Assembly (NCBI GenBank): GCA_016235545.1 | Contig: JACRKB010000292.1 | Coordinates: 1 to 32,023 of the forward strand | DNA from: Verrucomicrobiota bacterium | GTDB taxonomy: Bacteria; Verrucomicrobiota; Verrucomicrobiia; Limisphaerales; SXTU01 | Direction: 5' to 3' | DNA length: 32,023 bases | Part shown: in pieces, positions 1 through 23,063 of the stretch | How the letters are laid out: every line of letters starts with the position of its first letter | Numbering within the stretch: the stretch's first letter is position 1 | The notes under the pieces: generated by a model | Told to the model about the DNA's origin: nothing | Database searches by the model: none | The model's input: only the letters and a program-made list of their open reading frames with translations | Position numbers and translations under genes: made by a program

Positions 1-849
1 AAGTGCTGGGACGGAAGCGGCTGCGGACGTGGGCGTCCGCGCTCCTTCGCGGTCGCGCAACTCCAGTGCCGCGACCATCGCGAGGATGCCGGGGACGTTT
101 TCGGTGCCAGCGCGGCGGGCCTCCTCCTGCGAGCCGCCACGCAGAAGGGGCTCGACGCGGCCTTTCGACGGGCATTTCAAGAAGCCGACGCCGCGGGGGC
201 CGCCGAATTTGTGCGCGCTGCCGCTGGCCCAATCGCAGTCGCCAAACGCTGCGGCGGGGAGTTTGCCGAGGGCTTGCACAGCGTCGCAGAAGAACGGGAT
301 GCCGTGCGCCCGGCAGAGGGCGAGGATTTCGTGTGTGGGCTGGATGACGCCGGTCTCGTTGTTCACGGCCATGGCGGCGAGGAGGCCGGGGAGTTTTGAG
401 TTTTGAGTTTTGAGTTTTGAGTTGGCCGCTGGCCCTTCGGCGCGGCAGTTGCGGAGTTGGGCACGGAGCCATTTCAAGTCAACGACGCCGGCGCGGGTGA
501 CGGGGATGAGGCGGTGGCGGTTCGGGAAATGGTGGCGCGCGGCTTGCGTCACGCACGGGTGCTCAATGGCGGAGAGCCAGACTTCGGCGTGGGGCGGGAG
601 CGTGTGCGCGGCGTGGTGGAAGAGGGTGTTTGCGGACTCGGTCGCGCCGGAAGTGAAGACGATGTCGAGGGCATCGCAGCCGAGCAGGCGGGCGAGCCTC
701 CCCCTCGCTTCGCTCAACGCGGCGTCTGCTCGCGCGCCGACGCGGTGCAGGCTGGAGGGGTTGCCGATGAAGCGCTCAGCCGCGTCCAGCCACGCCTGCC
801 GCGCGGCGGGATGGAGCGGCGAGGTCGCGTTGTGGTCGAAGTAGAGCAC
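1..849 (-). CDS. Cysteine desulfurase (NifS/IscS-like), C-terminus beyond window
   Basis: PLP enzyme that takes sulfur from L-cysteine for Fe-S clusters and other thio-cofactors; cytoplasmic. The visible 283 residues start at a GTG 3 bp after the stop of the upstream C26 peptidase gene, which suggests translational coupling. They show the fold-type I signature: YFDHNAT at the N-terminus, FTSGATESAN near residue 66, a conserved His at 97, NNETGVIQP near 163, CDAVQALGK near 188 and the PLP lysine K214 in SGSAHKFGG, then RRAGTENVPG. The active-site cysteine loop lies outside the window. Oddity: residues 143-153 (NSKLKTQNSKL) are encoded by a run of perfect heptamer repeats inserted before the conserved AVNNETG strand. 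A second palindromic repeat near positions 21-50 may have been captured in frame near residue 267. It is distinct from the complete paralogue at 5248-6408. The family is clear; the choice among NifS, IscS and SufS types is not. Confidence 0.9.
   Translation of the reverse strand, partial: MLYFDHNATSPLHPAARQAWLDAAERFIGNPSSLHRVGARADAALSEARGRLARLLGCDALDIVFTSGATESANTLFHHAAHTLPPHAEVWLSAIEHPCVTQAARHHFPNRHRLIPVTRAGVVDLKWLRAQLRNCRAEGPAANSKLKTQNSKLPGLLAAMAVNNETGVIQPTHEILALCRAHGIPFFCDAVQALGKLPAAAFGDCDWASGSAHKFGGPRGVGFLKCPSKGRVEPLLRGGSQEEARRAGTENVPGILAMVAALELRDREGARTPTSAAASVPAL
391..423. repeat. In-frame heptamer run GAGTTTT x4 inside a cysteine desulfurase gene
   Basis: Four perfect copies of GAGTTTT followed by GAGTT, 33 nt in all (11 codons). 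The coding frame is kept. On the coding (minus) strand the unit reads AACTCAA. No inverted partner arm was seen nearby, unlike the other heptamer loci of this window. Confidence 0.9.
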
Positions 850-852
850 GGC

Positions 853-1596
853 TTACTTGCGCGCAGTGGCGCGGATGAAGGCGCGAAAAAGTTCGGCGAA
901 GTGCGGATGACGGTCGTAGAGACGCTCGGGGTGGAATTGGACGGATTGGAGGAAGGGCAGTTGCCCCGCGTCCTTGAGTTCCATCGTCTCGATGACTCCG
1001 TCGGAGGTGGTGCCGGTGACGCGGAGCGCGCCGGCGACGCGGGCGACGGCTTGATGGTGCGTGCTGTTGGTGCCGGTCCGCGTGGTGCCGAGGAGGGCGG
1101 CGAGCTGGGAGTCCGGCGCGAGGGACACGTCGTGGACAAGCTCCATCTTGCGCTCAAGCTGCTTGTGAGCGAGCGCGCCGGGGAGTTGCGCCGGGATGTC
1201 CACGATGAGTGTGCCGCCGAGTGCGACGTTGAGCATCTGATGGCCGCGACAGATGCAGAGGAGAGGCTTGCGCTGGCGGAAGACTTCATCCACGAGGGCG
1301 AACTCCAGCACGTCGCGCTCCGGCTCCACGTCCTTGATGGTGGCGGCGATTTCTGGTGGCGTGTCAGGCGCGTAGTGCTTGAGCTCGATGTCCTCGCCGC
1401 CGGTGAGCAGCACGCCGTCTGCACGGCGGACAAGCTCGGCGATTTGGTCGCGCGTGGCGGTGACGGGGAGGATGAGGGGCATCCCGCCAGCGTCGTTGAT
1501 GGCCTGCGTGTAGCGGTTGGAAAGGCTGATCGAGGCGTCGGCAAACTCAGTGCCGGCGGCCTGCTGGCAAGGAGTGACGAGGATGAGCGGTGGCAT
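853..1596 (-). CDS. Class I glutamine amidotransferase-like peptidase C26 (gamma-Glu-GABA hydrolase family)
   Basis: A 247-residue cytoplasmic hydrolase resembling PuuD, which cleaves gamma-glutamyl amide bonds in polyamine breakdown. The true substrate here is unknown. The catalytic triad is visible: nucleophile C116 in CICRGHQ, and H222 and E224 in QFHPE. The oxyanion strand VLLTGGEDI lies near residues 62-70, and the NSTHHQAV segment typical of the family near 177-184. I chose the ATG at 1596 because the protein then begins MPPLILVTPC, the usual first strand; the open frame runs 40 codons further upstream, but that stretch is repeat DNA. The downstream cysteine desulfurase begins 3 bp after the stop, so the two are probably one transcript. 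No aminotransferase or other polyamine gene is adjacent. Confidence 0.88.
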   Translation of the reverse strand: MPPLILVTPCQQAAGTEFADASISLSNRYTQAINDAGGMPLILPVTATRDQIAELVRRADGVLLTGGEDIELKHYAPDTPPEIAATIKDVEPERDVLEFALVDEVFRQRKPLLCICRGHQMLNVALGGTLIVDIPAQLPGALAHKQLERKMELVHDVSLAPDSQLAALLGTTRTGTNSTHHQAVARVAGALRVTGTTSDGVIETMELKDAGQLPFLQSVQFHPERLYDRHPHFAELFRAFIRATARK

Positions 1597-1598
1597 GG

Positions 1599-1876
1599 GA
1601 TTCTTATCAGGAGAGCAGGAGGGCAGGAGAGAGATGCGCGCGGGCGGCGTGGAGCTTCGCTGCTTTCTCCTGCCCTGGAGCACGGCCCTCCGGGCCGCAG
1701 CGGGTGAAGGGGGCAAGAAGAGTTTGAAGTGCGCAGCCCAGAGGCTTCATCCATGCGCTGCGGATGGGACGCCCGCGCTCCGGCCCGTGGGTGGTCGCGG
1801 GCTGCGTCCAGATGCACACGGCGGCGCGGGGCCTCGCTGCTTTCTCCTGCCCTCCTGCTCTCCTCATAAAAATCTT
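1599..1876. repeat. AG/CT-rich inverted-repeat element between two genes
   Basis: This element fills the gap between the C26 gene and the next gene. A 22-base arm made of 8-base units (AGGAGAGC, AGGAGGGC, AGGAG) at 1609-1630 is matched exactly, in reverse complement, at 1843-1864. The outer flanks also match (ATTCTTATC against CATAAAAAT), extending the ends to about 33 bp. A 23-base segment starting GCTTCGCTGC at 1653 recurs nearly identically at 1831, so the left end also has a nearby inverted partner. No convincing gene lies inside. Confidence 0.8.
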
Positions 1877-1898
1877 CTTCCTCCTCGTCTCCTGCCTC

Positions 1899-2174
1899 CT
1901 AGTCGAGCTTCGTGCCGGGGTAGCGGTCGTAGATCATCTTCTTCACGCGGGTCTCTTCGTCGGGCGGCAGAAGGCGCCGGTTGATACGGCGGCGGACGGT
2001 GTCGAGGAGTTCGATCCAGTCTTCGAGCGGTGGGCTTTTGATGGGTTCCCAGTCTTCGCCGCGTTTGAGTTGGTGGAAGAAAAGCCACTCGCGACCAAAG
2101 CGGCGGACGGAGATTTCCAACTTGGTGCCGTCCTCGTTTTTGCGGGTCCAGCCGACTTCGGATTTGATGGCCAT
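1899..2174 (-). CDS. Conserved-looking hypothetical protein, 91 aa
   Basis: I do not recognise a named family. The 91-residue product is soluble, with no signal peptide or membrane segment. It begins MAIKSEVGWTRKNEDG and alternates strand-like segments (KLEISVRRFGREWLFFHQ) with a helical, charged C-terminal half rich in Arg and Glu (LLDTVRRRINRRLLPPDEE). The composition is that of a real folded protein, and the ATG at 2174 gives a sensible start. It lies alone between two repeat elements: the AG-rich inverted repeat downstream and the GTGATTA heptamer run 9 bp upstream of its start codon. That placement leaves almost no ordinary promoter region, so transcription from further upstream or from within the repeat is likely. 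Function unknown. Confidence 0.7.
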   Translation of the reverse strand: MAIKSEVGWTRKNEDGTKLEISVRRFGREWLFFHQLKRGEDWEPIKSPPLEDWIELLDTVRRRINRRLLPPDEETRVKKMIYDRYPGTKLD

Positions 2175-2183
2175 GTGGGGAGG

Positions 2184-2578
2184 GTGATTAGTGATTAGTG
2201 ATTAGTGAGGAGTTGTCAGCCGTGTTCGCGGTTGCGGACGGCGCATGCTCTGCACCACAGCTACACACTTGGGGATGACAATCGCACCGAAAGGTCGGCG
2301 ACGTGGTTCCTGTCATGCTCAATCCCCACCTCCATCACCATCGCTGCTGTTGCCGTCGCTACCGCCGCTCGGCCCAAGGTCAGGGCCTGTTCCGCCACCA
2401 CCGCCGGCACCGGCACCGGCGGCGAGCCAGCCAATAATTAGGGAGCGAAATAGCAACGCGGTAGCTCCAGTCACCACGACGACGGCGCACACGCTGATGT
2501 TAATCTCTTTTGCTGTCATAAATGCCAGTTGTCCACCGAACGCGTAGTGCCAGCAACTATTTACTAATCACTAATCAC
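2184..2578. repeat. Inverted heptamer arms (GTGATTA x3 / TAATCAC x2) flanking a small ORF
   Basis: GTGATTA occurs three times head to tail at 2184-2204, followed by GTGA. Its exact reverse complement, TAATCAC, occurs twice at 2565-2578. The arms are about 360 bp apart and enclose a 66-codon minus-strand ORF (2319-2519). The right arm ends 12 bp before the ispF stop codon. The remainder of this 416-bp interval shows no other gene. Confidence 0.85.
2319..2519 (-). CDS. Small putative membrane protein with Gly/Asp-rich tail, 66 aa
   Basis: I do not recognise this gene. The product begins MTAKEINISVCAVVVVTGAT, with one hydrophobic span at about residues 7-33, and then changes to a tail of glycine, aspartate and serine ending SDGDGGGD. 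A single-helix anchor with an acidic glycine-rich tail looks like a real small protein rather than chance translation, but the length is short and the ribosome-binding site is not clear. The gene sits between the inverted GTGATTA/TAATCAC arms, so it may have moved together with them. Alternatively, the open frame could be accidental in GC-rich DNA. Confidence 0.4.
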   Translation of the reverse strand: MTAKEINISVCAVVVVTGATALLFRSLIIGWLAAGAGAGGGGGTGPDLGPSGGSDGNSSDGDGGGD

Positions 2579-2590
2579 TTCCGGCTTCGG

Positions 2591-3070
2591 TTACTCGGGC
2601 AAGTCCACGCTCGCCACGGCCATCGCGGCGATGCCTTCCTCGCGGCCGATGAAGCCCATGTGCTCGTTGGTCGTGGCTTTGATGCCGACCTTTTTCGGGT
2701 CGAGGCCGAGTGCGGCGGCGATGTTCGCCTTCATGGCCTGGACGTGGGGCATGAGCTTGGGGGCTTGGGCGATGAGGGTGGCATCCACGTTGACGAGGCG
2801 GCCTTGCCGCAAGGTGACTTGGCGCGCGGCTTCTTCGAGGAAGATGCGGCTGGGCGCGCCTTTCCAGCGTGGGTCGGTGTTCGGGAAGAACTGGCCGATG
2901 TCGCCTTCGCCAATCGCACCGAGCACGGCGTCGGTGATGGCGTGCATGAGGGCGTCGGCGTCGGAGTGGCCGTCAAGGCCCTTCGTGTGAGGGATGTCCA
3001 CGCCGCCGAGGATGAGTTTGCGGCCCTCGGTGAGCTGGTGGACGTCGTAACCAATGCCGACGTGAATCAT
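2591..3070 (-). CDS. ispF: 2-C-methyl-D-erythritol 2,4-cyclodiphosphate synthase
   Basis: Step 5 of the MEP isoprenoid pathway: converts 4-diphosphocytidyl-methylerythritol 2-phosphate to the cyclic diphosphate with release of CMP. It forms a cytoplasmic trimer with zinc. At 159 residues it has normal length. Visible motifs are GIGYDVHQL with metal ligands D9 and H11, [17 protein letters not shown] with the third metal ligand H43, the [11 protein letters not shown] flexible loop near 61-71, and the C-terminal signature [14 protein letters not shown]. The start codon lies only 10 bp from a heptamer hairpin (3081-3174), leaving a leader of CTAACAAACC with no Shine-Dalgarno sequence. ispD is not adjacent. 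The identification is firm. Confidence 0.97.
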
Positions 3071-3080
3071 GGTTTGTTAG

Positions 3081-3174
3081 CTTTCAGCTTTCAGCGTTCA
3101 GCGTTCAGCAATTGGCAAAGTGGGCGCTGCGCTCCTTCGCTGAGTGCTGAGAGCTGTCCGCCGTCCGCTGTCCG
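3081..3174. repeat. Heptamer hairpin between FHA-cyclase gene and ispF
   Basis: Left arm: CTTTCAG x2 then CGTTCAG x2 (3081-3108). Right arm: CTGAGTG, CTGAGAG, CTGTCCG, CCGTCCG, CTGTCCG (3140-3174). The arms are of opposite sense (CTTTCAG against CTGAxxG), so they can pair. The core contains GGGCGCTGCGCTCC. The right arm ends at the base next to the stop codon of the 3175-5049 gene. Confidence 0.85.
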
Positions 3175-5049
3175 TCACGCGGGCTTGCCGCCCTTGAGGG
3201 CCTTGACGCGGTAGCAGTGGAACTCGCCGAGTTCCTTGTGCGAGACGGTGGCGCGGTCGGCCTCAATGATCTTGAAGACCTTTTGATAAACCTCGGGGCC
3301 GATGAGCACCTCGCCGTCGTGCGCGCCCTTGCAGTAGTGCGAGGCGCGGGTGATGCCGGAGCCGAGCGCGATGAACTCCATCCGGTCACCGGTGCCGATG
3401 AAGCCGTGGAGCACCTCGCCGATGTGGACGCCCACGGCAAGTTCGCAGTGCGGGGCTGCCTGGCCTTTGCGCTTGGCGTTGATTTCCTTGACCGCCTGCT
3501 CCATCGCGACGGCGGCGCAGACGGCCTTCTCGTTCTGCTGCAAGTCCGGTTCCGGCGAGCCGAAGACGGCGATGATTTCCTCCCCGCCGGATTTGACGAG
3601 CGTGCCGTCGTAGCGGAATACGGCGTCGAGCGCCGCGCCGAGGTAGTCACGCAGCAGCGAGGCGGCTTCCGCCGGCGCGAGGCCGGGCACCACGGCAAAG
3701 CCGCGCAGATCGGCGAAGAGGACGGGGAGTTCCGACTTGAGCGTGGTGGGCTGGAGGCGTTCCAAGCGGAGGTTTTCCAGCAGCCGCTCCTGCACGCGCG
3801 GGGGGAATTTTGTGGTGATGCGGTCCAGCAGCGAGGCGTTGTGGGCGAGCTTGGCCTGCAACTCCTGGTTGAAGATGATGACGGCGATGTAGTGGGCCAC
3901 GGCGAGGAGGAACTGCATGTCGTCCTCGCTGAAAGGCTCGCTGCGCTTCGGGTCGTCGAGGTAGATCGCGCCCAGCGGCTTTTCCTTGAGCAGGAGCGGC
4001 GCATACATGCCGGTCTCGACGGTGATGAGTTTCTTGTCGAGCAGGGCTGCCTCGTTGCTGCGCTGGAGGATGAACCCGTGTGCTTCCTCCATGACTCTGC
4101 GGGCGAGTGATTCGCTGACGATGACCTCGCCTTGCGGAATGCTCGCGCCGACCTGCACGCGACCGGTGGCGGAGTCGTGCAGCATGAGGGCGCCGCGCTT
4201 CGCGCCAGGGATGAGCGTGAGGACGCGCGTGAGGATGGCCTGGAGCATGTCCGGCAGCCGCATGTCGGGCGTGAAGGACAGCGGGACTTGATACAGGCTG
4301 GCGAGGCGGCGCTTGAAATCAGCGTCTGCCGTGGTGTCAGCGGCGGCAGTGACGACGACCGGGGCCGGTGGCGCGGTCACTGGCGCAGGGGTTGGTGGGG
4401 TCGGCTGCGGAGCGGCAACGGGAGCGGCGGCCGGAGTTGGTGGTGCGACAGGCTCGGGTGGTGCAGCGGGCGCGGGCGCGGCGGGCTTGGGCACTACGGA
4501 AACCTTGGGGGCCTCGATGACTGGAGCCGGTGCGGGTGCGGCGGGCTTGGGGACGGCTGGGGTTCCTGCGGGCAGGACGCCGACGCCCGGCTTGGGTGGA
4601 AGGATGCCTTGTGCCCCGGGTTTGGGTGCGGGAGCCGGGGCCGCCGACGAGGGCGATGGCCTCATGACGTTGACCGACGGGATGAGCATGTCGCCATCTG
4701 GCTCGGCGGCTGGCTTGGGCTGAACTGGTTTGGAAGCAGCAGCTTTGGGTGCGACAGCGGCGAATTCGACGCGGAGTGAAGTCTCTCCGGTGCGGATGAC
4801 GCTCTGCGGGGTGATGGGGGCGTTCTCGATGTATTCGCCATCAACGACCGTGCCGTTGGTGCTGCGCAGGTCCTCGATCCAGACCTCGCCGTTGGTCACC
4901 TTGATGCGGCAGTGTTTGCGCGAAACGGTGGGGTCGGCCCCGAAGTCGAGGTCCGGCGCGCTCAACGGACTGAGGCGACCAATGAGAACCTCACCCCGAT
5001 CAAAGGTGCGGATTTCTTCTTTGCCCTGATAGCTGTAGATGACTCGCAT
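3175..5049 (-). CDS. FHA - Pro/Ala linker - GAF - class III cyclase-like signalling protein
   Basis: A 624-residue cytoplasmic signalling protein. An FHA phosphothreonine-binding domain occupies about 10-97 (GR at 24-25, SRKH at 43-46, STNGT at 63-67). A Pro/Ala-rich linker of roughly 100-235 follows, then a GAF domain (about 245-400) and a class III nucleotidyl cyclase domain (about 436-600). The first metal aspartate is present (D447 in LFADLRGF), but the second is Glu (E490), and the positions normally held by the substrate-specifying Asp and the transition-state Asn and Arg read S564, T567 and H571 in GSGITRASH. The domain may therefore be catalytically weak or inactive, sensing or scaffolding instead. 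I start at the ATG at 5049 because the fold begins MRVIYSYQG; a further ATG at 5145 would add 32 Arg-rich residues that look non-coding. The stop abuts a heptamer hairpin. Confidence 0.88.
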   Translation of the reverse strand: MRVIYSYQGKEEIRTFDRGEVLIGRLSPLSAPDLDFGADPTVSRKHCRIKVTNGEVWIEDLRSTNGTVVDGEYIENAPITPQSVIRTGETSLRVEFAAVAPKAAASKPVQPKPAAEPDGDMLIPSVNVMRPSPSSAAPAPAPKPGAQGILPPKPGVGVLPAGTPAVPKPAAPAPAPVIEAPKVSVVPKPAAPAPAAPPEPVAPPTPAAAPVAAPQPTPPTPAPVTAPPAPVVVTAAADTTADADFKRRLASLYQVPLSFTPDMRLPDMLQAILTRVLTLIPGAKRGALMLHDSATGRVQVGASIPQGEVIVSESLARRVMEEAHGFILQRSNEAALLDKKLITVETGMYAPLLLKEKPLGAIYLDDPKRSEPFSEDDMQFLLAVAHYIAVIIFNQELQAKLAHNASLLDRITTKFPPRVQERLLENLRLERLQPTTLKSELPVLFADLRGFAVVPGLAPAEAASLLRDYLGAALDAVFRYDGTLVKSGGEEIIAVFGSPEPDLQQNEKAVCAAVAMEQAVKEINAKRKGQAAPHCELAVGVHIGEVLHGFIGTGDRMEFIALGSGITRASHYCKGAHDGEVLIGPEVYQKVFKIIEADRATVSHKELGEFHCYRVKALKGGKPA

Positions 5050-5247
5050 GAGCTTGCCGGCGCTGTTTTCGGTTGCCAACTCTGTCGTTCCTCGCCGGGC
5101 GGGCCGACGGGCACGCCGTGTGGCGATGCCGGGGAGACTAAACATCCGCCAGCCCCAACGGCAAGCACTTGCTGGAAAGCGAACGCGCGGAGTGGCCCGC
5201 CCCGGAGGGAGTGCATGGCGGGACCGGAGGAAAACGCCCCGCCAACC

Positions 5248-6408
5248 TCAACTTGCCGCCGCCGCGCCTCGCACTCGTGCGATGATGGGCGGCAGTTTTT
5301 CCAGCAGGTAGTCCACCTCTTCCGCCGTGTTGTAGATGCCGAGGCTGAAGCGCACAGAACCCTTCGCGCGCGCGGGCGAGAGGCCCATCGCCGTCAGCAC
5401 ATGGCTGGGTGCGAGCGAGCCAGTGGTGCACGCCGAGCCGCTGGAGGCGCAAATCCCCTCGCGGTCCAGCAGCAGCAATATCGCCTCCCCCTCGCAGCCT
5501 GCGAAGGTGAGGTTGCTCGTGTTCGGGAGCCGTGCATCGCGTCCGCCATTGCGGCTCGTGTCGGGAATGGTCGCAAGAATCGTCTGCTCCAGCCGGTCAC
5601 GCAGGGCACGGATGCGAGAGTTCTCATCGTGGATCGAGGCCAGCGCCAGCTCGGCTGCGCGCCCGAAGCCGACGATGTAAGGCACGTTCTCCGTGCCGCC
5701 GCGCCGGCCCTTCTCCTGCCCGCCGCCGAGGAGATAGGAATGATACGGAGCCGTGTAACGGCAGTAGAGCAGGCCCACGCCTTTGGGCGCGTGCAGCTTG
5801 TGCGCGGAGAGGGAGAGGAAATCCACGCCCAGCTCATCCACGTCCACCTTGAGCTTGCCGGGCACCTGCACCGCATCGGTGTGGTAGAGCACGCTCTTGC
5901 TGCGGCAGATGGCGGCGATTTCCTCCAGCGGGAAAAGCACGCCCGTCTCGTTGTTCGCCCACATGACGGACACGATGGCGGTGTCAGGCCGGATGGATTT
6001 CTCCAGCAGGTGCAAATCGAGAGAGCCGTCCGACTCGACCGGCAGGAACGTCACGTCGTGGCCGCGTCGCCTGAGGAACTCGCAGTATTTGATGTTCGCG
6101 GAATGCTCGACCGCCGTGGTGAGCACGTGGCGCTTGCCCGGCTGCGTCACAAGCGCGCTGTGGATCGCCGTGTTGTTCGACTCCGTGCCACAGCTTGTGA
6201 AGACGATCTCTCGCGCGTCTGCGCCGATGAGCGCGGCAACCTGCTCGCGGGCGAGGTCCAAATCCTTCACCACCTGGTTGCCGAAGGAATAGGCGCTGGA
6301 GGCGTTGCCCCACAGCTCGGTGAAGAATGGCGTCATCGCCGTCACGACCTCGGGGGCGACCCGCGTGGTGGCGTTGTTGTCGAAGTAATAAATCCTGCGG
6401 TGGCTCAT
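5248..6408 (-). CDS. iscS: Cysteine desulfurase (NifS/IscS family)
   Basis: A complete 386-residue PLP enzyme that mobilises sulfur from cysteine for Fe-S cluster assembly and tRNA thiolation. Key residues are visible: YYFDNNATT at 7-15, FTSCGTESNN at 70-79, H102 stacking on the PLP ring, NNETGV at 152-157, D178 and Q181, PLP lysine K204 in LSAHKLHAPKG, RRGGTENVPY at 236-244 and the persulfide cysteine C327 in SGSACTTG. The cysteine loop is of the long, class I type. No iscU, iscA, hesB or Rrf2-type regulator is adjacent, so the symbol reflects the family and not operon context. It is a second desulfurase, well diverged from the one at 1-849. A 218-bp gap with a hairpin element separates it from holB. 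Confidence 0.95.
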   Translation of the reverse strand: MSHRRIYYFDNNATTRVAPEVVTAMTPFFTELWGNASSAYSFGNQVVKDLDLAREQVAALIGADAREIVFTSCGTESNNTAIHSALVTQPGKRHVLTTAVEHSANIKYCEFLRRRGHDVTFLPVESDGSLDLHLLEKSIRPDTAIVSVMWANNETGVLFPLEEIAAICRSKSVLYHTDAVQVPGKLKVDVDELGVDFLSLSAHKLHAPKGVGLLYCRYTAPYHSYLLGGGQEKGRRGGTENVPYIVGFGRAAELALASIHDENSRIRALRDRLEQTILATIPDTSRNGGRDARLPNTSNLTFAGCEGEAILLLLDREGICASSGSACTTGSLAPSHVLTAMGLSPARAKGSVRFSLGIYNTAEEVDYLLEKLPPIIARVRGAAAAS

Positions 6409-6490
6409 CTCAATCGCCAGCCTTCGGCCAGCGGGAGGGCGAGTCTAGGAATGAAGCCCCAAAGCGCAAGTGGGATTCCGGGGATCAGAG

Positions 6491-6620
6491 GCAGGCAGGT
6501 GGGAAAGTGGGCAGGTGAGAAAGTGGGAAAGTGGGACGGCGTTGGAGCGCTCCATTCCACTCCCTCACTTTCTCACCTGCTCACTTTCCCACCTTCTCAG
6601 CTTCTCAGCTCCTCACCTGC
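6491..6620. repeat. Octamer hairpin (GTGGGAAA-type / CTCACTTT-type arms) between holB and iscS
   Basis: Left arm 6491-6536 has units of 8 such as GTGGGAAA, GTGGGCAG and GTGAGAAA. Right arm about 6561-6620 has CTCACTTT, CTCACCTG, CTCACTTT, CCCACCTT, CTCAGCTT and so on, the reverse-complement sense. A short core containing GGAGCGCTCC lies between them. The right arm ends 6 bp from the holB stop codon. It may act as a terminator or mRNA stabiliser; there is no clear T-run. Confidence 0.85.
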
Positions 6621-6626
6621 CCCATC

Positions 6627-8472: not shown

Positions 8473-8560
8473 TGGCGGAGAGGGAGGGATTCGAACCCAC
8501 GGTGGTGTTACCCACGCACGCTTTCCAGGCGTGTGCCTTAAACCACTCAGCCACCTCTCC
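8473..8560 (-). tRNA. tRNA-Ser (anticodon GGA)
   Basis: An 88-nt class II tRNA with encoded CCA. Acceptor stem GGAGAGG pairs with CCTCTCC, followed by discriminator G and CCA. The D-arm begins TGGCTGAGTGG. The anticodon loop CTGGAAA gives anticodon GGA, reading UCC and UCU. There is a long variable arm, as expected for serine, and the T-loop is GGTTCGAATCC. The gene is isolated in a decayed region: a hydrolase pseudogene ends 76 bp beyond its 3' end, and an integrase remnant lies beyond its 5' end. Confidence 0.97.
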
Positions 8561-14361: not shown

Positions 14362-16038
<1,677 letters not shown>

Positions 16039-16075
16039 TCCAGCCCCTCGGTCCATCACGGGCTGAAATTCAACA

Positions 16076-16207: not shown

Positions 16208-16339
16208 ACCAGCCCGGGGCAACGCCCCGGGACGTGCGACCACGGGTGGCAAAGCCCTGAAGGGGCGGCGCAAAAATGTCTCCCCCTTCAGGGCGGCGAG
16301 GCTCGTTGCCTTTCACCCAGGGCGTTGCCCTGGGCTGGT
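16208..16339. repeat. Palindromic CCAGCCCGGGGCAACGCC element
   Basis: The left end ACCAGCCCGGGGCAACGCCC (from 16208) matches, in reverse complement, the right end GGGCGTTGCCCTGGGCTGGT (to 16339) with few mismatches. Inside, GCCCTGAAGGGG (about 16254) pairs with CCCCTTCAGGGC (about 16283). A separate small hairpin, GCAGGCT-TTC-AGCCTGC, follows at about 16345-16361. Sequences of this type are familiar from PVC intergenic regions. Confidence 0.85.
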
Positions 16340-16401
16340 ATGGGGCAGGCTTTCAGCCTGCGATTGCGGCGTTCGGGATTAGCTGGCCGGCAATGGGCCG
16401 G

Positions 16402-16482
16402 CTCCTCTTGCTCGTAATCCTGCTCCTCACTTCTCGTTTCATTCTGCGGAGCAAGATTAGGATCAGGATTACGAGCAGGAGG
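16402..16482. repeat. Hexamer-unit hairpin with CAGGATTACGAGCA core
   Basis: Left arm 16402-16428 (units CTCCTC, TTGCTC, GTAATC, CTGCTC) and right arm 16447-16482 (units AAGATT, AGGATC, AGGATT, ACGAGC, AGGAGG) are in opposite sense; 14 bases pair exactly (TGCTCGTAATCCTG with CAGGATTACGAGCA). It is the 6-base counterpart of the heptamer hairpins elsewhere. The 60 bp after it (to 16550) contain a further dyad, CACGCAATT / AATTGCGTG. Confidence 0.75.
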
Positions 16483-16571
16483 GGAAAAGCCACGCAATTG
16501 CAGGAAATTGGGATGCGCCCCTTGCGGGCAGGGGCGGGGAAAATTGCGTGCCTCGGCGAGGGGCTTGCGCC

Positions 16572-17129
16572 ATGCTCGGGCGCATGAGCGTGCCACGTCA
16601 GATTCGCAACGTCGCGCTGGCGGGCTTCATGGGCGTGGGCAAGTCGTCCGTGGGCCGGCTGGTGGCTGCCGAGCTGCAGTTTGAGTTTGTGGACACGGAT
16701 GAGGTCATCGAAAAGCGGACGGGGGTGAAGGTGAGCGAAATCTTCGCCCTGCACGGCGAGGAGGTCTTCCGCAAGTTTGAGCGCGAGCTTGTCGCGGAGA
16801 TGACCTCGTGGAGCGGCAGGGTTATTTCCACAGGCGGCGGGCTGGTGGTGGAGCCGGACAATCTCGCCAGCCTCAAATCGCATTCGCTCGTCGTCTGCCT
16901 CTGGGCCTCGCCGGCCACGATTTACCAGCGCACGAAGCACCAGACCCATCGCCCGTTGCTGCAGGCGGCCGATCCGCTGGCCAAAATTCGCGAACTGCTG
17001 GCCACGCGTGAGGCGGCCTACAAGCAGGCGGATGTGCTGGTCAACACCGAGCAGCGGTCCATCAAGGAAATCGCCGCCCATGTGCTGCACCACATCCGCG
17101 CGGCGCGGCACGACCCGCCGCGGCTGTGA
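16572..17129 (+). CDS. aroK: Shikimate kinase
   Basis: Phosphorylates shikimate with ATP in the chorismate pathway to aromatic amino acids; cytoplasmic. The product is 185 residues. Motifs: Walker A GFMGVGKSS at 18-26, shikimate-binding FVDTDEVIEKR at 39-49, HGEEVFRKFERE at 61-72, STGGG at 86-90, the lid arginine region HRPLL at 126-130, and the terminal adenine-side segment TREAAYKQAD at 145-154. I start at the ATG at 16572, which has a purine-rich GAGGGG 9 bases upstream; the ATG at 16584 is a good alternative that loses only four residues. It overlaps queG by 4 bp and the two form an operon. Confidence 0.94.
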   Translation: MLGRMSVPRQIRNVALAGFMGVGKSSVGRLVAAELQFEFVDTDEVIEKRTGVKVSEIFALHGEEVFRKFERELVAEMTSWSGRVISTGGGLVVEPDNLASLKSHSLVVCLWASPATIYQRTKHQTHRPLLQAADPLAKIRELLATREAAYKQADVLVNTEQRSIKEIAAHVLHHIRAARHDPPRL

Positions 17130-18223
17130 AGGCGGCCATCCGCCAGCGCGCCCGCGAGCTGGGCTTCGAGGATTGCCGGTTCACCACCGCCGCGCCACCG
17201 GGGCACACGGCGCAATTCCAAAGCTGGCTCGAAGCCGGGCAGCATGGGGAAATGGCCTACCTCGCGCGCAACGCGCACAAGCGCGCGGAACCGGAGCAGG
17301 TGCTGGCGGGGGCGAGGAGCGTCATCTCGCTCGCGGTGAGTTACGCGGAGGGGGAAGCGGTCAGCGGTCAGCGGTCAGTGGTCGGCGAGGGAGGCGAGCG
17401 TTCGTCACTGAACACTGAACACTGGCCACTGACTACTGGAGTCGTCGCCCGTTACGCGCGCTTCGCGGACTATCACGATGTGCTGGCCTCGCCGCTCAAG
17501 CAGCTCGCAGAAACGGTCAACCAGTCCGGTGGCCCGGGCACGCGCTCGCTCTGGTATGTGGACACGGGGCCGTTGCTGGAGCGCGACCTCGCGCAGCGCG
17601 CCGGACTGGGATTCGCCGGCAAGCACACAAACCTCATCAGCCGGCGGCTGGGCAACTGGTTCTTCCTCGCCGAGATCATCACGACGCTGGAGCTGGAGCC
17701 GGACACTGCGGAGAAGAATCGTTGCGGCTCCTGCACGCGTTGCATCACGGCCTGCCCCACGCAGGCCATCACCGCGCCCTTCCTGCTCGACGCGCGGCGC
17801 TGCATTTCCTACCTGACCATCGAGTTGAAGGGGGCCATCCCGGTGGAGCTGCGGCCTGCCATCGGCAACCGCATCTACGGCTGCGACGATTGCCTGGCGG
17901 CCTGCCCGTGGAACAAATTCGCGCAGGAGGGACGCATCATGCGAGGCAACGCGCGCGCCGACCTCGCGCAGCCAGACCTGCTGGAGTTGCTCGCGCTGGA
18001 CGACACAGGTTTCAAGCAGCGCTTCGCGGGCACGCCGATTCTGCGCACGAAGCGTCGCGGCCTGCTGCGCAATGTCTGCGTGGCGCTGGGCAACGTTGGC
18101 AATGCCATGTCGCTCCCGCACTTGGAGCGGGCCGCCGCAGACCCGGAGCCGCTCATCGCAGAGCACGCGCGGTGGGCCATAGGGCAGATCACCGCGCGCC
18201 ACGATGAAGCGCCGAAGGGTTAG
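17126..18223 (+). CDS. queG: Epoxyqueuosine reductase
   Basis: Last step of queuosine synthesis in tRNA (GUN anticodons): reduces epoxyqueuosine using cobalamin and two [4Fe-4S] clusters. At 365 residues, it starts at a GTG overlapping the aroK stop (GTGA). Visible: the catalytic aspartate D146 in VDTGPLLERD, cluster ligands C200/C203/C206 with C210 (CGSCTRCITACP), C226, and C253/C256/C260 (CDDCLAACPWN), then a C-terminal HEAT-like repeat region (LLRNVCVALGNVGN). Oddity: residues about 79-105 between SLAVSYAEGEA and GVVARYARFADYH have no place in the family and are encoded by a two-armed heptamer repeat (17360-17440). All catalytic residues remain, so the protein is probably functional with an extra surface loop. 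Confidence 0.95.
   Translation: MKAAIRQRARELGFEDCRFTTAAPPGHTAQFQSWLEAGQHGEMAYLARNAHKRAEPEQVLAGARSVISLAVSYAEGEAVSGQRSVVGEGGERSSLNTEHWPLTTGVVARYARFADYHDVLASPLKQLAETVNQSGGPGTRSLWYVDTGPLLERDLAQRAGLGFAGKHTNLISRRLGNWFFLAEIITTLELEPDTAEKNRCGSCTRCITACPTQAITAPFLLDARRCISYLTIELKGAIPVELRPAIGNRIYGCDDCLAACPWNKFAQEGRIMRGNARADLAQPDLLELLALDDTGFKQRFAGTPILRTKRRGLLRNVCVALGNVGNAMSLPHLERAAADPEPLIAEHARWAIGQITARHDEAPKG
17360..17440. repeat. In-frame two-armed heptamer repeat inside queG
   Basis: Left arm GTCAGCG x2, GTCAGTG, GTCGGCG (17360-17387). Right arm CACTGAA x2, CACTGGC, CACTGAC, TACTGGA (17406-17440). GTCAGTG and CACTGAC are exact reverse complements. The total of 81 bases (27 codons) keeps the queG reading frame without a stop codon. 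Confidence 0.9.
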
Positions 18224-18360
18224 CCACAAAGAGGTTCAACAGGCTCAATACGGAAAACCACTGGGCGGCGCGGCAGCGGTTGAGGCCAACACATTCAGGC
18301 ACGCGGTGCTATCTCCCATTGGGCCTTCTCTCCCTTGTTGTGGCCCAACCTTCCCGCAGG

Positions 18361-19104
18361 TTACCTGCGCGCGAAGATGCGGTTGGCCTCCTCCAGCGTC
18401 TCCTTCGACCCGATGTCATACCAGATGCCCGGCACCGTCCAGGTGAAGACCGGAGTGCGCGGGTAAAGCCACTGGACGAGCCGGCCCGGCTGGTCGGGGT
18501 TGTTGCCCTCGGCGAGGTATTGGGCCACGAGCGGGAGAATGGCGCGCGGGTAGTAGTAGAGCGCGATGCCGATGAGCGTGCTGGCGGGTTGCTCAGGCTT
18601 CTCCTTGAAGTCGGCGATGACGCCATCGCGGTCCACGGCCACGACTCCGTATTTCTTCGCCGCTTCGAGGCTGCCCACGTCATACAGACCGAGGACCGGG
18701 GCGTTCTTCGCACGGCAGAACTCGCCAAACGCGCCGAGCTTCTCGCTGAACAAGTTGTCGCCCGCCACCACAATGATGTCGTCATCCACGCGCTCGCGCT
18801 GGAGCACGAGGTTCAAGTCGCCGATGGCCCCGAGCTTGTTCGAGTCGTCCGTGGATCCGTCGTTGACGATGGTGAAGGCGAAGGGCGCGCGCGTGGCGTA
18901 GTCGTCCGCCCATTTCTGGAAGTGTCCGGCGAACTTCGCGTTGGTCACGACATAGACACGGTCAATCCCGCCGATGGCCGCGAGGTTGTCCATCACGTAG
19001 TCAATCATCGGCTTGCCAGCCACGGTCAGCAGGGGCTTGGGCTGGGTGAGCGTGAGAGGATACAGGCGTGTGGCGTAACCAGCGCCGAGAATGAGGACTT
19101 TCAT
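18361..19104 (-). CDS. Sugar-nucleotide pyrophosphorylase (nucleotidyltransferase family)
   Basis: A 247-residue GT-A-fold nucleotidyltransferase of the RmlA/GalU type, which joins a sugar-1-phosphate to an NTP, giving NDP-sugars for envelope polysaccharide. The signature loop GAGYATRLYPLT is at 7-18, followed by QPKPLLTVAGKPMIDYV with the lysine K23. The metal aspartate lies in VVAGDNLFSE, and the sugar-binding EKPEQPASTLIGIALYYY region is clear, as is the terminal YDIGSKETLEEANRIF. There is no left-handed beta-helix acetyltransferase part, so it is not GlmU. Whether it uses dTTP, UTP or another nucleotide cannot be told from the sequence. It converges with queG; the 137 bp between them hold no recognised feature beyond a weak GCCACAA/TTGTGGC dyad. 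Confidence 0.88.
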   Translation of the reverse strand: MKVLILGAGYATRLYPLTLTQPKPLLTVAGKPMIDYVMDNLAAIGGIDRVYVVTNAKFAGHFQKWADDYATRAPFAFTIVNDGSTDDSNKLGAIGDLNLVLQRERVDDDIIVVAGDNLFSEKLGAFGEFCRAKNAPVLGLYDVGSLEAAKKYGVVAVDRDGVIADFKEKPEQPASTLIGIALYYYPRAILPLVAQYLAEGNNPDQPGRLVQWLYPRTPVFTWTVPGIWYDIGSKETLEEANRIFARR

Positions 19105-19194
19105 CGCGCAGCGTTGTAGGCGGAACGCCAGCCGGTGTCAAAAACAAGCCGCGCGCGGTGGCGAATGACGGCATCCGGTCAGGTCACTAAAGTC

Positions 19195-19222
19195 TTGCCG
19201 CGCCAATAGTCGTTCGCATAAT
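19195..19222 (+). promoter_or_regulatory. Sigma70-type promoter of tRNA-Ala
   Basis: TTGCCG (19195-19200) and CATAAT (19217-19222), 16 bases apart. The -10 box lies 18 bp before the mature tRNA 5' end. Match to consensus is 4/6 and 5/6. Confidence 0.5.
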
Positions 19223-19240
19223 GCGCCCCGCAATTGGGGC

Positions 19241-19316
19241 GGGGTCGTAGCTCAGTTGGTAGAGCGTCTCGTTCGCAATGAGAAGGTCGCAGGTTCGATT
19301 CCTGTCGGCTCCACCA
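19241..19316 (+). tRNA. tRNA-Ala (anticodon CGC)
   Basis: A 76-nt tRNA with encoded CCA. Acceptor GGGGTCG pairs with CGGCTCC and includes the G3-U70 wobble pair that marks alanine tRNA. D-arm GCTC-AGTTGGTA-GAGC; anticodon stem TCTCG/TGAGA with loop TTCGCAA, giving anticodon CGC for GCG codons; T-loop GGTTCGATTCC. The 240 bp after it (19317-19555) hold only a 36-codon ORF from ATG 19421, which I do not support as a gene. Confidence 0.97.
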
Positions 19317-19555
19317 ACCCAATGGCGCAAGGCTTGTCGAGTTGCACGCTCCGTCTGGCGCCGCGTTTTCGACCCCCGCTTCAGTGAGCCCTGCACGCCA
19401 ACCAAGGCACGCAGGGTGCCATGAAAAATACGCTCGCTCAGCTTCTCGGGGAACCTGCTTTTTCACCGCACTGGCATCGCAAGAGCGAGGTTCTGACTTT
19501 TCCCGGTGAGTTGGCCGCACTGCGGTCGTAGCGTTACGGCCGCAATGGTGTTTCG

Positions 19556-19709
19556 CCCGAACTCCGAGATGGAATGGCCGTGAAAGGGTGCAAAGAGAGC
19601 TAGGCCAGGTTTCTGGCAGGAGAACGGGGCGGTTGGAAACAGTCCCAGCTCCAGTCATCCCAGACTCGGCTCCTTTGTGCCCTTTCGCGGCTGAACTTCG
19701 GAGTTCGGG
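19556..19709. repeat. Dispersed palindromic element, copy B
   Basis: About 154 bp, homologous to 9904-10047. The ends are near-perfect inverted repeats: CCCGAACTCCGA at the left and TCGGAGTTCGGG at the right, continuing as GCCGTGAAAGGG against CCCTTTCGCGGC. The shared centre is GGTTTCTGGCAGGAGAAC and CAGTCCCAGCTCCAGTC. It occupies most of the space between tRNA-Ala and the large cytochrome-type gene. Confidence 0.88.
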
Positions 19710-19817
19710 CCCAGAACAGTGAGGAACCTCAATTGCTCTCATTCAACTTTCAACTCCCTCCTCCAATCTGGCGCGTTGGAGAGTGGCAATTTGCCGACAA
19801 GTAGCTACTCTGCGCGC

Positions 19818-22800
19818 GTGAAGACTGTGAAACTTGCCAGCCATTTTCTCTTTGCCGCCCTTGCTGCCGCCGGGGTTGCAAATGCCGCGGCCCAGCCCGT
19901 CACCGGCCTCGCCGCCATCCACGTGCCGGAGGGCTTCAGGGTGGAGCTTGCCGCCGGTTCGGATCTCGCTCCTTACGCGATGTTCGGCGCTCTCGACGAG
20001 CGCGGCCGCCTGTTCCTCGCGGAATCCTCCGGCAAGAACATCAAGGGCCTCGCGATGGCGCAGGCGCCCGAGTGCCGCATCCGAATGATGGTGGACACGG
20101 ATGGGGACGGCACCTTCGACCGGAGCACCATTTTCGTGGACCGCGTGGGCATTCCGATGGGCGTGCTGTGGCATGACGGCGCGCTGTTCGTCGCATCGCC
20201 GCCGGATTTCCTGCGCTTCGATGATGTGGATGGTGACGGACAGGCGGACACCCGGACGGTGTTGTTGAGCGGCTGGAACGTGCGCGGCACGGCGAGCCTG
20301 CACGGGCCGTTCCTCGGGCCGGACGGCTGGCTGTATCTGACCGACGGCCGGCATGGCTTCGACATCAACACGAAGGAGGGCACGAATTTGAAAGGCCTCG
20401 CCTCGCGCATCTGGCGCGTGCGCCCCGATGGGACGCAGCTGCAGTCCTTCGCGGGCGGCGGCTTTGACAATCCAATCGAAGTCGTGTGGACGCCTGCCGG
20501 CGAGATGGTCGGCACGATGACATATTTCGTGGACCCGCAGCACGGCCAGCGTGACGCGCTCATGCACTTCCTGCACGGCGGCGTTTACAGCAAGTGGCAC
20601 GCGAGCGTCGCCGAGTTCAAGCTCACCGGCGATCTCATGCCGCCGATGACGAGGTTCGCGCGCATCGCGCCGGCGGGGCTCGCGCGGTATCGCGGAACGA
20701 GCTTTGGTCCGGAGTTTCAAGGCAACCTCTTCAGCGCGCAGTTCAACCCGCACCGCGTCCAGCGCCATGTCGTCGCCCGGCACGGCGCGACGTTTGCCAC
20801 GGCGGACACGGATTTTCTCGTCTCCAGCGACCCGGACTTTCACCCGTGCGACGTGCTGGAGGACGCCGACGGGAGCCTGCTCGTGGTGGACACGGGCGGC
20901 TGGTATGTGGACCAGTGCCCGCTCTCCCGCACCAGCAAGCCGGAGTTCAAGGGTGGCATTTACCGCGTGCGCCGCGCGGGTGCCGCAAGGGCGAACGACC
21001 CGCGTGGCGAGTCGCTGGGCTGGAAGCAGCTCCCGCCCGCCGCGCTGGCGAAGCTGATCGAAGACCCCCGCCCGTTTGTCGTGGACCGCGCTGTGGAGGC
21101 GCTCGTGAAAATGGGGGAAGGCGCGGTCGCCCCGCTCGCGGAGCTGCGCCGCAAATCCGCCAGCACGGACGCGAGGTGCGCGGCGGTCTGGTGCCTGTTC
21201 CGCATCGGTTCAACGAAGGCTCTCGCCGAAGTGCGCGCCGCGCTGCAAGACAGCTTGATGGAAGTGCGCATCGCCGCCGCGCAAGCCGCTGGCCTGGGCG
21301 GTGACAAGGAAGCGCTCGACGCATTGCACGCGATTCTCCAGCAGGACCAGGCGCCGGTGCGACGCGAGGCCGCCACTGCGCTGGGGCGCATCGGCGACAA
21401 GCGCAGCAACGGCCCGCTCGTCACCGCCGCCGCGCGTTCAGCCGACCGCTTTGAGGAGCACGCCCTCACCTACGCGCTCATGCAGAATTTCTCGCGCATG
21501 ACGAACCGGAACGTGGGCGTCGCGACCGCGCAGTTGGCGAGCCTGCACCCGCGCAGCGCGAAGGCCGCGCTCATGGCGTTCGACCAGATGGACGGGAGCC
21601 AGCTCATGATGTCGCACGTCGAGCCGCTGCTGCGGAGCCGGGACGCGGAGCTGCGCCGCACCGCGCTTTGGGTTTTCTCGCGTCACCCTGACTGGGCTGC
21701 GGGCGTGCGGGACCACCTGAAGTCGCGCTTGAAGGCGGACAAGTGGGACGCCGGCGAGCAGGAGTTGCTGCGAGAAACCTTGTTGAGCCTCGCATCCGAC
21801 ACGGTGTTGCAGGGTGTGGTGGCCGTGGCTCTCAACACTCCGGAAACGAGGGAGGAGCGCCGCCTCTTCCTGCTCGATGTGCTGGAGCGCAGTCCGTTGA
21901 AGAAATTTCCCGACGTGTGGAATCAGGTTTTGAGCGCGCTTCTCGAAGGGCAGAGCCCGACGCTTCGCCTGCGGACGCTCGTGCTGGTGCGCGCGCGCGG
22001 TTTGACGGAGTTTGACAGTCTGCTGCGCCGTCTCGCCGCCGCCCTGCCGGAGACCAAGCCGGTGCGGCTCGCGGCCATTGGCGCATTGGCCGCGCGGACC
22101 ACGCCGCTGGCCACGAACCATTTCAACTTTCTGGGCGAGACTCTTGCCGGCAAGGACTACTCCCAGCGCACCACCGCCGCGCAGGTGCTGGGCAAGGCGA
22201 AGTTGAGCGAGGCGCAACTGGTGAGGCTGTCGGAGTCGGTGGTGGCGTCGGCGGACAGTGTGACGCTGCTCGCGCTGGCAGAGGCGTATCGCGGCGGCAA
22301 GAGCGAGGGCGTGGGCAAGGCGTTGCTCGCCGCGCTGGAGCGGAACAAGTCAGCCGCGGAGGTGTTGAGCGTGACGCAGCTCACCGAGCTGGTGGCGAGC
22401 TATCCTGATGGCGTTCGCTCTGGCACGAAGACGTTGGTGGGCCGCATCGAGTCGCTTCAGGCCGAGCGCATCAAGCGGCTGGCAGAGCTGGAGCCGCTGC
22501 TTTCCGGCGGCGACGTGGGGCGAGGCCGCGCGGTGTTCTTCGGCCAGAAGTCCCAGTGCTCCGCCTGCCACGCCATCGGCAAGGAAGGCGGCACGCTGGG
22601 GCCGGACCTGACCTCCATCGGTGCGATTCGCTCCGGGCGGGACATCCTCGAGGCGATTGTTTTTCCGAACGCGACATTCGTCCCCGGCTACGAGCCGATG
22701 CGCGTGGAGACGAAGGATGATTACGTGACCGGCAACATCGTGCGCGAGGACAGCAGCGCGGTGGTGATGAAGCTCAACGCCGTGCTGGAGCAGCGAATCC

Positions 22801-22961
22801 CGCGCAGCGACATCAAGAGCATCACGCCCGGCGCGATCTCCGTGATGCCGGAGGGGCTGACAGCGGGGCTGACGAAAGAGGAGCTGCTGGACCTGATGGC
22901 GTTCCTTCAGGCGCAGAACGGGGAGGGCTGGTTGACGCCGCAGCGGAGGGGGAGCAGGTGA
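19818..22961 (+). CDS. PVC-type beta-propeller / HEAT / cytochrome c domain protein ('membrane-bound dehydrogenase' family)
   Basis: An exported 1047-residue protein of a family greatly expanded in Planctomycetes and Verrucomicrobia. From GTG 19818 it has a signal peptide (KLASHFLFAALAAAGVANA), then a sugar-dehydrogenase-like beta-propeller of about 30-400 (IHVPEGFRVELAAG, MMVDTDGDGTFDRSTIFVD, FLGPDGWLYLTDGRHGFD, DVLEDADGSLLVVDTGGWY). HEAT repeats fill about 410-880 (VRIAAAQAAGLGG, VRREAATALGRIGD). A C-terminal cytochrome c domain has the haem motif CSACH (C914, C917, H918) and the family ending GPDLTSIG and ILEAIVFPNA. It probably oxidises a sugar or other organic substrate in the periplasm; the substrate is not known. 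The open frame continues 33 codons upstream into non-coding sequence, so the GTG start is preferred. No sulfatase or PSD1-type partner is adjacent. Confidence 0.9.
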   Translation: MKTVKLASHFLFAALAAAGVANAAAQPVTGLAAIHVPEGFRVELAAGSDLAPYAMFGALDERGRLFLAESSGKNIKGLAMAQAPECRIRMMVDTDGDGTFDRSTIFVDRVGIPMGVLWHDGALFVASPPDFLRFDDVDGDGQADTRTVLLSGWNVRGTASLHGPFLGPDGWLYLTDGRHGFDINTKEGTNLKGLASRIWRVRPDGTQLQSFAGGGFDNPIEVVWTPAGEMVGTMTYFVDPQHGQRDALMHFLHGGVYSKWHASVAEFKLTGDLMPPMTRFARIAPAGLARYRGTSFGPEFQGNLFSAQFNPHRVQRHVVARHGATFATADTDFLVSSDPDFHPCDVLEDADGSLLVVDTGGWYVDQCPLSRTSKPEFKGGIYRVRRAGAARANDPRGESLGWKQLPPAALAKLIEDPRPFVVDRAVEALVKMGEGAVAPLAELRRKSASTDARCAAVWCLFRIGSTKALAEVRAALQDSLMEVRIAAAQAAGLGGDKEALDALHAILQQDQAPVRREAATALGRIGDKRSNGPLVTAAARSADRFEEHALTYALMQNFSRMTNRNVGVATAQLASLHPRSAKAALMAFDQMDGSQLMMSHVEPLLRSRDAELRRTALWVFSRHPDWAAGVRDHLKSRLKADKWDAGEQELLRETLLSLASDTVLQGVVAVALNTPETREERRLFLLDVLERSPLKKFPDVWNQVLSALLEGQSPTLRLRTLVLVRARGLTEFDSLLRRLAAALPETKPVRLAAIGALAARTTPLATNHFNFLGETLAGKDYSQRTTAAQVLGKAKLSEAQLVRLSESVVASADSVTLLALAEAYRGGKSEGVGKALLAALERNKSAAEVLSVTQLTELVASYPDGVRSGTKTLVGRIESLQAERIKRLAELEPLLSGGDVGRGRAVFFGQKSQCSACHAIGKEGGTLGPDLTSIGAIRSGRDILEAIVFPNATFVPGYEPMRVETKDDYVTGNIVREDSSAVVMKLNAVLEQRIPRSDIKSITPGAISVMPEGLTAGLTKEELLDLMAFLQAQNGEGWLTPQRRGSR

Positions 22962-22966
22962 GGGAT

Positions 22967-23063
22967 AGTGTTCAGCAATCAGTGTTCAGTGGGGAGCGCG
23001 TGACACAACCGTAACGATGTTCCAGCGAAGCACTGAAAACTGATTGCTGAACACTGAACACTG
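22967..23063. repeat. Heptamer hairpin with 25-bp stem between convergent genes
   Basis: Left arm 22967-22991 begins AGTGTTCAGCAATCAGTG; right arm 23031-23055 is its reverse complement over 25 bases with one mismatch, plus one further CTGAACA unit to 23063. Seven-base units are GTGTTCA, GCAATCA, GTGTTCA on one side and CTGAAAA, CTGATTG, CTGAACA, CTGAACA on the other. The loop is 39 bases. It lies between the stop codons of two convergent genes and ends 1 bp before the def stop, so it could end transcription from both sides. Confidence 0.92.

Follow-up and report, generated by a model that had tools for sequence, protein, structure and literature searches.

The stretch of DNA analyzed here, contig JACRKB010000292.1 of a Verrucomicrobiota bacterium of the order Limisphaerales (32,023 nucleotides, hereafter the window; GenBank assembly GCA_016235545.1), carries short tandem arrays of seven-base units, some of which are doubled as two arms of opposite sense in the layout of a hairpin. 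A first-pass annotation had listed such heptamer arrays at five places, four hairpins and one single arm, and all five were present when the coordinates were rechecked (tandem repeats were called by TRF and gene identities by Pfam; array coordinates are on the + strand). The single arm, GAGTTTT x4.7 in the TRF call at 391..423, is part of an aminotransferase class V gene on the - strand (PF00266 on window 1-852) and lies within its reading frame. Among the hairpins, GTGATTA x3.6 at 2184..2208 is followed 354 bases downstream by a right arm of ACTAATC x2.4 (2563..2579), and a left arm of AGCTTTC and AGCGTTC units at 3079..3109, directly upstream of an ispF-type gene (YgbB, - strand), has its right arm, CGCTGAGTGCTGAGAGCTG, at 3138..3156. 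The third hairpin is in frame in queG, with a left arm of AGCGGTC-type x4 (17356..17383) and a right arm of CACTGAA, CACTGGC and CACTGAC units (17406..17440), and shows that complementarity of the arms is not universal. The fourth lies between two convergent genes; its left arm reads AGTGTTC AGCAATC AGTGTTC AGTG (22967..22991), and, apart from one mismatch, the first 25 bases of its right arm (23031..23063) are complementary to the left arm, with the units in order. Arms of 8-base units were also present at 6494..6536 (GTGGGAAA type) and 6564..6618 (CTCACCTT type), and another 8-base pair, absent from the earlier list, was seen at 1608..1629 (CAGGAGAG) and 1844..1864 (CTCCTGCC). The 6-base tandem units reported earlier at 16402..16482 were not confirmed: the window has five arrays of period 6, none with an inverted partner, and TRF called only a 12-base unit on the right side (16449-16480). 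The piece is a dispersed palindrome made up of mixed words, for which BLAST gave many matches in sister genomes.

Nine arrays of period 7 were found in the window compared to a mean of 0.84 (maximum 4) in 50 shuffles, and five of these (four hairpins) had an inverted partner within 400 bp, compared to a mean of 0.14 (maximum 2). Period 8 gave three arrays with a partner (two hairpins, including the pair at 1608-1629 and 1844-1864) and a shuffle maximum of 1, and the two period-9 arrays with a partner were not above chance (shuffle maximum 2). Period statistics for the genome of the window (G000; 5.01 Mb, 311 contigs) were taken from 61 stretches picked by contig number plus the window (782,089 bases, 15.6% of the genome), with an order-3 Markov model and a codon-block shuffle as null models. 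Results from this sample showed 99 period-7 runs with at least 9 net matches, compared to 13 and 1 in the two nulls, respectively, 59 with at least 12 compared to none in shuffled sequence, and 38 with at least 14 compared to 0 and 0. Multiples of 7 were also prominent, and periods 5, 10 and 13 hardly so; period 8 gave 6 runs with at least 14 net matches against 0 and 0, and periods 6 and 9 exceeded the shuffles less clearly, with part of their signal due to codon structure. The first-pass annotation had called for a scan of the genome against shuffled sequence, and in the 15.6% examined the excess was found and the loci did not prove to be decayed copies of one consensus.

The diversity of the units was assessed after heptamers had been made canonical for rotation and strand and arrays with less than 25% A+T (less than 35% in another analysis) had been removed as likely codon artefacts. 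The 68 arrays of the sample fell into 45 unit classes, the commonest with four arrays each, and 60 of 2346 element pairs aligned over at least 45 bases, even under lenient scoring. These two results rule out a single consensus mobile element and bear out the earlier view that the copying of one such element does not explain the arrays. The accompanying claim that units differ at each locus stands as to wide variation but not as to uniqueness, since words of the CTGAACA type gave 59 overlapping hits genome-wide at no more than one mismatch (reversed pattern, 0). The arrays are not one element, yet their words are somewhat shared between loci.

Such sharing would be expected if short tracts were overwritten from other arrays in the genome by ectopic conversion, with words spreading between loci and a weak dialect arising in each genome, an explanation that we consider possible but doubtful. 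Unit sharing among loci was 0.092 within G010 and 0.062 within G023, and thus higher than between genomes of different families (0.000-0.006, the range of all between-genome values except the 0.021 of G000 and G010, which belong to one genus). In addition, G008 has (AAATCCG)n at two loci, and G009, G010 and G000 have none; there is one further locus in G002, one single-mismatch hit in G004, and none in the other eight genomes. However, sharing within G000 was only 0.015, below the value for G000 and G010, it was 0 of 24 pairs in G015, the 68 arrays comprise as many as 45 classes, and the common word of the two G008 loci may be chance. A strict word dialect per genome was rejected, the signal from unit sharing and from the distribution of (AAATCCG)n being weak only.

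Pfam placed arrays in open frames of queG, mfd, lpxB, homoserine dehydrogenase (hom), recG, an IF-2B family gene, a class I glutamyl/glutaminyl-tRNA synthetase (gltX-type), two PSCyt2/PSD1 genes and the aminotransferase V gene; one of ten array-bearing proteins scanned (L020:13479-15008) had no Pfam match, and other arrays lie between convergent genes or at gene starts. The comparison with sister strains suggested by the first-pass annotation revealed different units at orthologous sites in queG, mfd, the IF-2B gene and the gltX-type gene and at the convergent-gene site. In species that are 87-95% identical in the mfd core, the place and usually the length of the array were kept and the unit was changed.

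Matches to queG were found in 35 of 40 genomes of the order, and 30 loci, G000 included, were cut and compared. The site is common to genus members with changed units, AGCGGTC and CACTGAA in G000 and AGTAATC and AGTGTTC in G006 and G005, the G005 array being a near-perfect palindrome of ordered mixed heptamers. In other families the same loop carries GTGGTCA-type (G027), TTCAACT-type (G035), GGTTTCA-type (G039) or TTCATCC-type (G012) units, and it is short in G011, G026, G033 and others. A sequence titled Klebsiella pneumoniae (CALQJI020000023.1) has a queG 85% identical to this Limisphaerales protein and is apparently a mislabelled metagenome bin. At the convergent-gene site, counterparts of 22967-23063 (TTCAGTG words in G000) have TTAGTGA in G006, CAGC-type units in G009 and TTAGC-type units in G005, with six CGCTAAC on the right side. 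G010 has two hairpins there (locus L087), flanking an extra gene which we take to resemble the DJ-1/PfpI family. No array was seen at this site in G002 and G003, where both sides were seen, or in G001, G004 and G007, where one side was seen.

In mfd site A, 33 columns align without gaps across seven species. The words are GAGTTTT in G000, AATGCGG (a rotation of GAATGCG) in G010 and G009, GATTGCC (a rotation of CGATTGC) in G008, GGAGTTT in G005, and others; there is no array at this site in G006 and G007. Residues ~517-592 of mfd hold another dispersed piece, in frame. The IF-2B gene gave 35 gap-free columns across five species whose flanks are 87-96% identical, with GTTCAAG in G000, GTCCAAG in G009, GTCCAAR in G010, ATCCCAA in G008 and GGCAAAA in G006. 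The tRNA-synthetase gene has CTCAACG in G010, CTCAACT in G009 and G000, and AAATCCG in G008. Small steps were also observed, as with CAATCGG in G010 and AAATCGG in G008 and G009, which differ in almost all units.

We compared array with flank identity at 12 site definitions, giving 120 orthologous species pairs that are not independent of each other. The set covered mfd sites A and B in seven species, the other two mfd sites in four, the IF-2B gene in five and PSD1 in two; G006 and G007 were omitted from the mfd A/B comparison because they have no array at site A, G007 queG was outside the set, and G004 mfd B failed the 14-column filter. Array identity was below that of the flanks in 89 of the 120 pairs (mean 0.66 compared to 0.81). 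Within the closest trio, G008, G009 and G010 (mfd core 93.9-94.9% identical), the array was less alike than its flanks in 21 of 26 site pairs and fell below the third-codon-position identity of the mfd core (0.85-0.88) in 17 of 26. As for copy number, of which this comparison gives a between-species view only, in 9 of 10 site definitions the columns of the reference array were gap-free in all trio pairs, with differing units, and the gltX-type stretch of G008 was longer. The arrays thus persist at fixed sites with mostly unchanged length, and their units are internally uniform but differ between sister species.

We next consider the inverted layout, which the first-pass annotation had regarded as a kept feature. 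In four genomes, 27 of 106 arrays had an inverted partner within 200 bp at a score of at least 9, compared to 12 of 318 random stretches, and 9 of the 106 had a direct partner. The layout is therefore a minority state, detectable in about a quarter of arrays. Merging gave 24 hairpins in which the sense of the arms is fixed: the left arm has G over C in 19 and C over G in 3, with 2 ties (p 0.0009), and left arms contain AGT 29 times and ACT never. Loops are of 25-43 bases in 18 of 24, and the hairpins with loops of 86-183 may be chance pairings.

The fixed arm sense (19 versus 3) and the narrow range of loops are features that REPIN-like or MITE-like mobile hairpins of ~100 bases would also have, if many unit-distinct families kept inserting where an insertion is tolerated, as in protein loops and at the ends of genes; so is a queG loop that holds different heptamer elements across families and is short in others, and an mfd loop is alike. 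REPINs have a similar geometry (PMC3116915), with two inverted arms, a variable spacer, a hairpin and many copies, but there the arm sequence is conserved and the elements are extragenic, whereas many arrays here are intragenic and no conserved arm sequence was found, as the pairwise alignments and unit classes given above indicate. Further, the exact length is kept in sister species at most sites, which is unexpected for fresh insertions, and no recent pair of presence and absence with clean junctions, as expected for a MITE, was found among the sites compared. The transposase domain Y1_Tnp, that of the RAYT enzymes which move REP elements and REPINs, is present in 31 of 40 genomes, and its count did not correlate with array density (Spearman -0.002, n=40; 0.30, p 0.11 in 29 order-level relatives), so that on this measure RAYT was rejected as the driver; G001, G004 and G009 (80-92% complete) carry arrays and had no Y1_Tnp match. 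Insertion of mobile hairpins is therefore, in our judgment, an unlikely origin of the pattern.

The match between arms was examined at four sites, with arms delimited by hand and right arms permuted between species. Genomes with a missing or decayed arm, or with a separate hairpin inside an arm, were left out (G004, G007, G012 and G035 at queG; G001, G002, G003, G004 and G007 at the convergent-gene site; G002, G004, G006 and G007 at mfd A/B; G006 and G007 at mfd C), and PSD1 and L287:18082 stood outside the test. Arms complemented their own partner better than the arms of other species (permutation p 0.0005), with an excess at three of the four sites, which is the relation that template switching in a quasipalindrome would be predicted to leave; mfd C was without excess. 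Ordered mixed units also match across the arms at 22967-23063 and in G005 queG, and in G009 mfd two arms 107 bases apart read GGAATGC and ATTCCGC, whereas its sister G008 has GATTGCC and CTCCTGC.

A match to the own partner is also what selection for a folded RNA or DNA element, such as a terminator or an mRNA hairpin, would produce through compensatory changes between arms, and the hairpin between convergent stop codons at 22967-23063, with its counterparts in G005, G006 and G010, would suit such a role. Five window loci were folded as single strands against 200 shuffles, the hairpin at 2184-2579 being outside this test. Folding was strong at three (6489-6622, z -10.4; 16400-16484, z -7.0; 22966-23066, z -6.5) and weak at two (17356-17440 and 3076-3176, z -1.8 each, equalled by 10 of 200 shuffles). 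However, a partner was not detectable for 79 of the 106 arrays, many arrays are located within conserved coding regions, and pairing imposes no 7-base period, all of which make selection for the fold a very improbable explanation. The first-pass annotation had left the choice between such selection and synthesis with strand switching; our data do not settle it, but they lean to the latter.

We tentatively propose that heptamer arrays, some doubled as hairpins, are rewritten in place by misalignment and template switching during replication, an explanation that, taken as a whole, we hold at somewhat less than even confidence. During replication the nascent strand would misalign by one unit, or cross to the other arm, pick up one or several variant bases at that position, and then realign. 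A change would in this way spread through the units and across the arms at constant length, and arrays in essential genes could take on a new word with the reading frame intact. Because slippage by one unit moves the frame by one base, a word change in mfd or the tRNA synthetase has to preserve length or be compensated. Slips of seven bases would presumably escape mismatch repair. The initial seeding of the arrays and the choice of seven lie outside the proposed explanation.

Several observations weigh against this explanation. In 31 of the 120 orthologous pairs the array was not below its flanks, and some arrays are static: four species share an mfd CGATTTC array at 0.97-1.00 identity, and for the PSD1 hairpin the values between G000 and G002 are 0.97 and 0.89. 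Length was not always kept, since the tRNA-synthetase stretch between anchors is 9 bases longer in G008 (73 compared to 64 in the other three species). There was no own-arm advantage at mfd C (13.75 compared to 13.67), mfd arm pairs are non-complementary in G000, G005 and G008, and G010 L287:18082-18177, outside the own-arm test, has different words in its arms, AATGGGG on the left and ATTCGCA on the right. (This site has an unrelated insert in G009 and a decayed pair in G000.) Differences between units are modestly concentrated in phase, with a value of 892 in 110 arrays compared to 845 (sd 19), and some random rotations reach 912. An invariant core with a hypervariable spacer, striking in single arrays such as L026:166-197, was rejected as a general rule on this modest result. 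Finally, gradual homogenization alone does not raise the substitution rate, so that the divergence needs extra mutation or a donor sequence.

The register of the units bears on both misalignment and ectopic conversion. A core is in register in most species (GA[AGT]T in six of seven at mfd A and CAA in three of five at IF-2B), which favours the former and argues against the latter. However, G008 is one base off at mfd A after its first unit, and at IF-2B G008 is shifted by +1 and G006 by -1, ruling out a core held in one register in all species. A register shifted in large jumps fits replacement of a tract better than the spread of single changes, and the 9-base length change in G008 likewise resembles tract replacement; the register check therefore raises the odds of ectopic conversion and lowers those of the misalignment model. 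Transient misalignment, whether within an array or from one arm to the other, explains the small steps and the matching of arms, and for the large register-shifted jumps and the length change overwriting from another array fits at least equally well; both may act.

The SbcCD nuclease genes were also searched for. Of the 40 genomes from the order only G029 passed the cut-off for SbcD (TIGR00619), compared to 8 of 14 controls, and any match was found in 11 of 40 compared to 13 of 14. For SbcC (TIGR00618) the cut-off was uninformative (passed in 0 of 40 genomes and 1 of 14 controls; any match in 29 of 40 and 14 of 14), and the extent of the match was used instead; SbcC was matched along its length only in G029, adjoining the sbcD match. 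Judged from these profile matches, the order may mostly lack SbcCD, and this absence is a plausible permissive condition that would let hairpins survive. G029 still has 6.9 pattern hits per Mb. In G026, G034 and G038 there is no SbcD match, and neither the ACT heptamer pattern nor its reversed control gave a hit, which is a further point against our explanation and means that loss of SbcCD is not sufficient. A bolder view, which we rate as quite improbable, is that Limisphaerales possess an active process, perhaps a specialized polymerase or repair pathway, by which heptamer cassettes of many words are written and later rewritten at fixed sites, sometimes both arms together, so that new surface-loop peptides steadily arise in essential proteins with the frame intact.

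Rickettsia palindromic elements are palindromic in-frame inserts in conserved genes that share a consensus. The arrays resemble them as in-frame palindromic inserts, with the queG hairpin found in genus members and a short loop in several relatives, but are without a common consensus. Also similar are the dispersed, partly degenerate (GGGANTN) G-rich heptamer repeats of Xanthomonas (GGGAATC) and Nostoc (GGGGA(C/T)T), with 2 to 26 copies and, for GGGAATC, convergent inverted pairs, 70 in Xcc and 75 in Xac (PMC4692102). They share with our arrays the seven-base unit, the dispersal and, in Xanthomonas, the inverted pairs, but that paper follows one unit per genome, mostly intergenic (11% and 7% overlapping genes), whereas dozens of units occur here, at least 10 arrays lie in Pfam-recognized genes, and orthologous sites have different units. 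The TAACTGA repeats of Beggiatoaceae, Cyanobacteria and Bacteroidetes form 169 direct sets of 2-6 units and one indirect repeat, mostly upstream of start codons, with 36 sets split by related heptamers (PMC4679880); they too are genome-wide heptamer arrays and contain the ACTGA word, but are a single unit and mostly direct. Head-to-tail seven-base units above chance were found here, and the one or few units per genome of the Xanthomonas and Beggiatoaceae pattern were not.

In yeast, template switching homogenizes inverted repeats in coding DNA (PMC8604942), and it has been described as a source of RNA hairpins (PMC8794818). Homogenized arms and clustered changes are common to those systems and ours, but these papers deal with separate events in ordinary inverted repeats, whereas here whole heptamer words differ site after site. 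Similarly, the tandem repeats of archaeal Borgs evolve fast in the reading frames of many proteins, but their intragenic units have lengths divisible by three and differ in copy number (PMC9879509), unlike the seven-base units of mostly fixed length here. The first-pass annotation was aware of no description of the inverted, unit-variable form. Inverted heptamer pairs as such are published for GGGAATC (PMC4692102), and among the papers listed in a search of open-licence literature, with most subscription journals outside it, none described unit-variable inverted heptamers or rewriting at fixed sites. Heptamer repeats are therefore known, as are inverted pairs built on a single heptamer, and unit-variable rewriting in essential genes looks like a new form of them.

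According to PMC4692102 and PMC4679880, the long simple repeats of many bacteria include an excess of heptamers, a polymerase contact length has been suggested as the reason, and there has been little later work. The present arrays can be traced at individual sites across sister species, where many change their word and keep place, length and frame, and this view separates copy-number slippage from length-neutral rewriting. They provide a natural setting in which to test template switching within essential genes, and they are a possible source of new loop peptides in housekeeping proteins. Peptides encoded by arrays should be treated with caution as repeat products, and array sites are poor phylogenetic characters.

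An RNA-family search of the window returned two tRNA genes only, at 8476-8560 (-) and 19241-19313 (+), the latter with many cross-genome matches. A piece of ~55 bases at 16314-16369 has matches of 79-94% identity at several positions in sister genomes. Two dispersed repeats of ~150 bases are represented in the window, at 19555-19709 and 31178-31330, and for each of them more than 20 matches are among those listed in G000, at ~81-93% identity.

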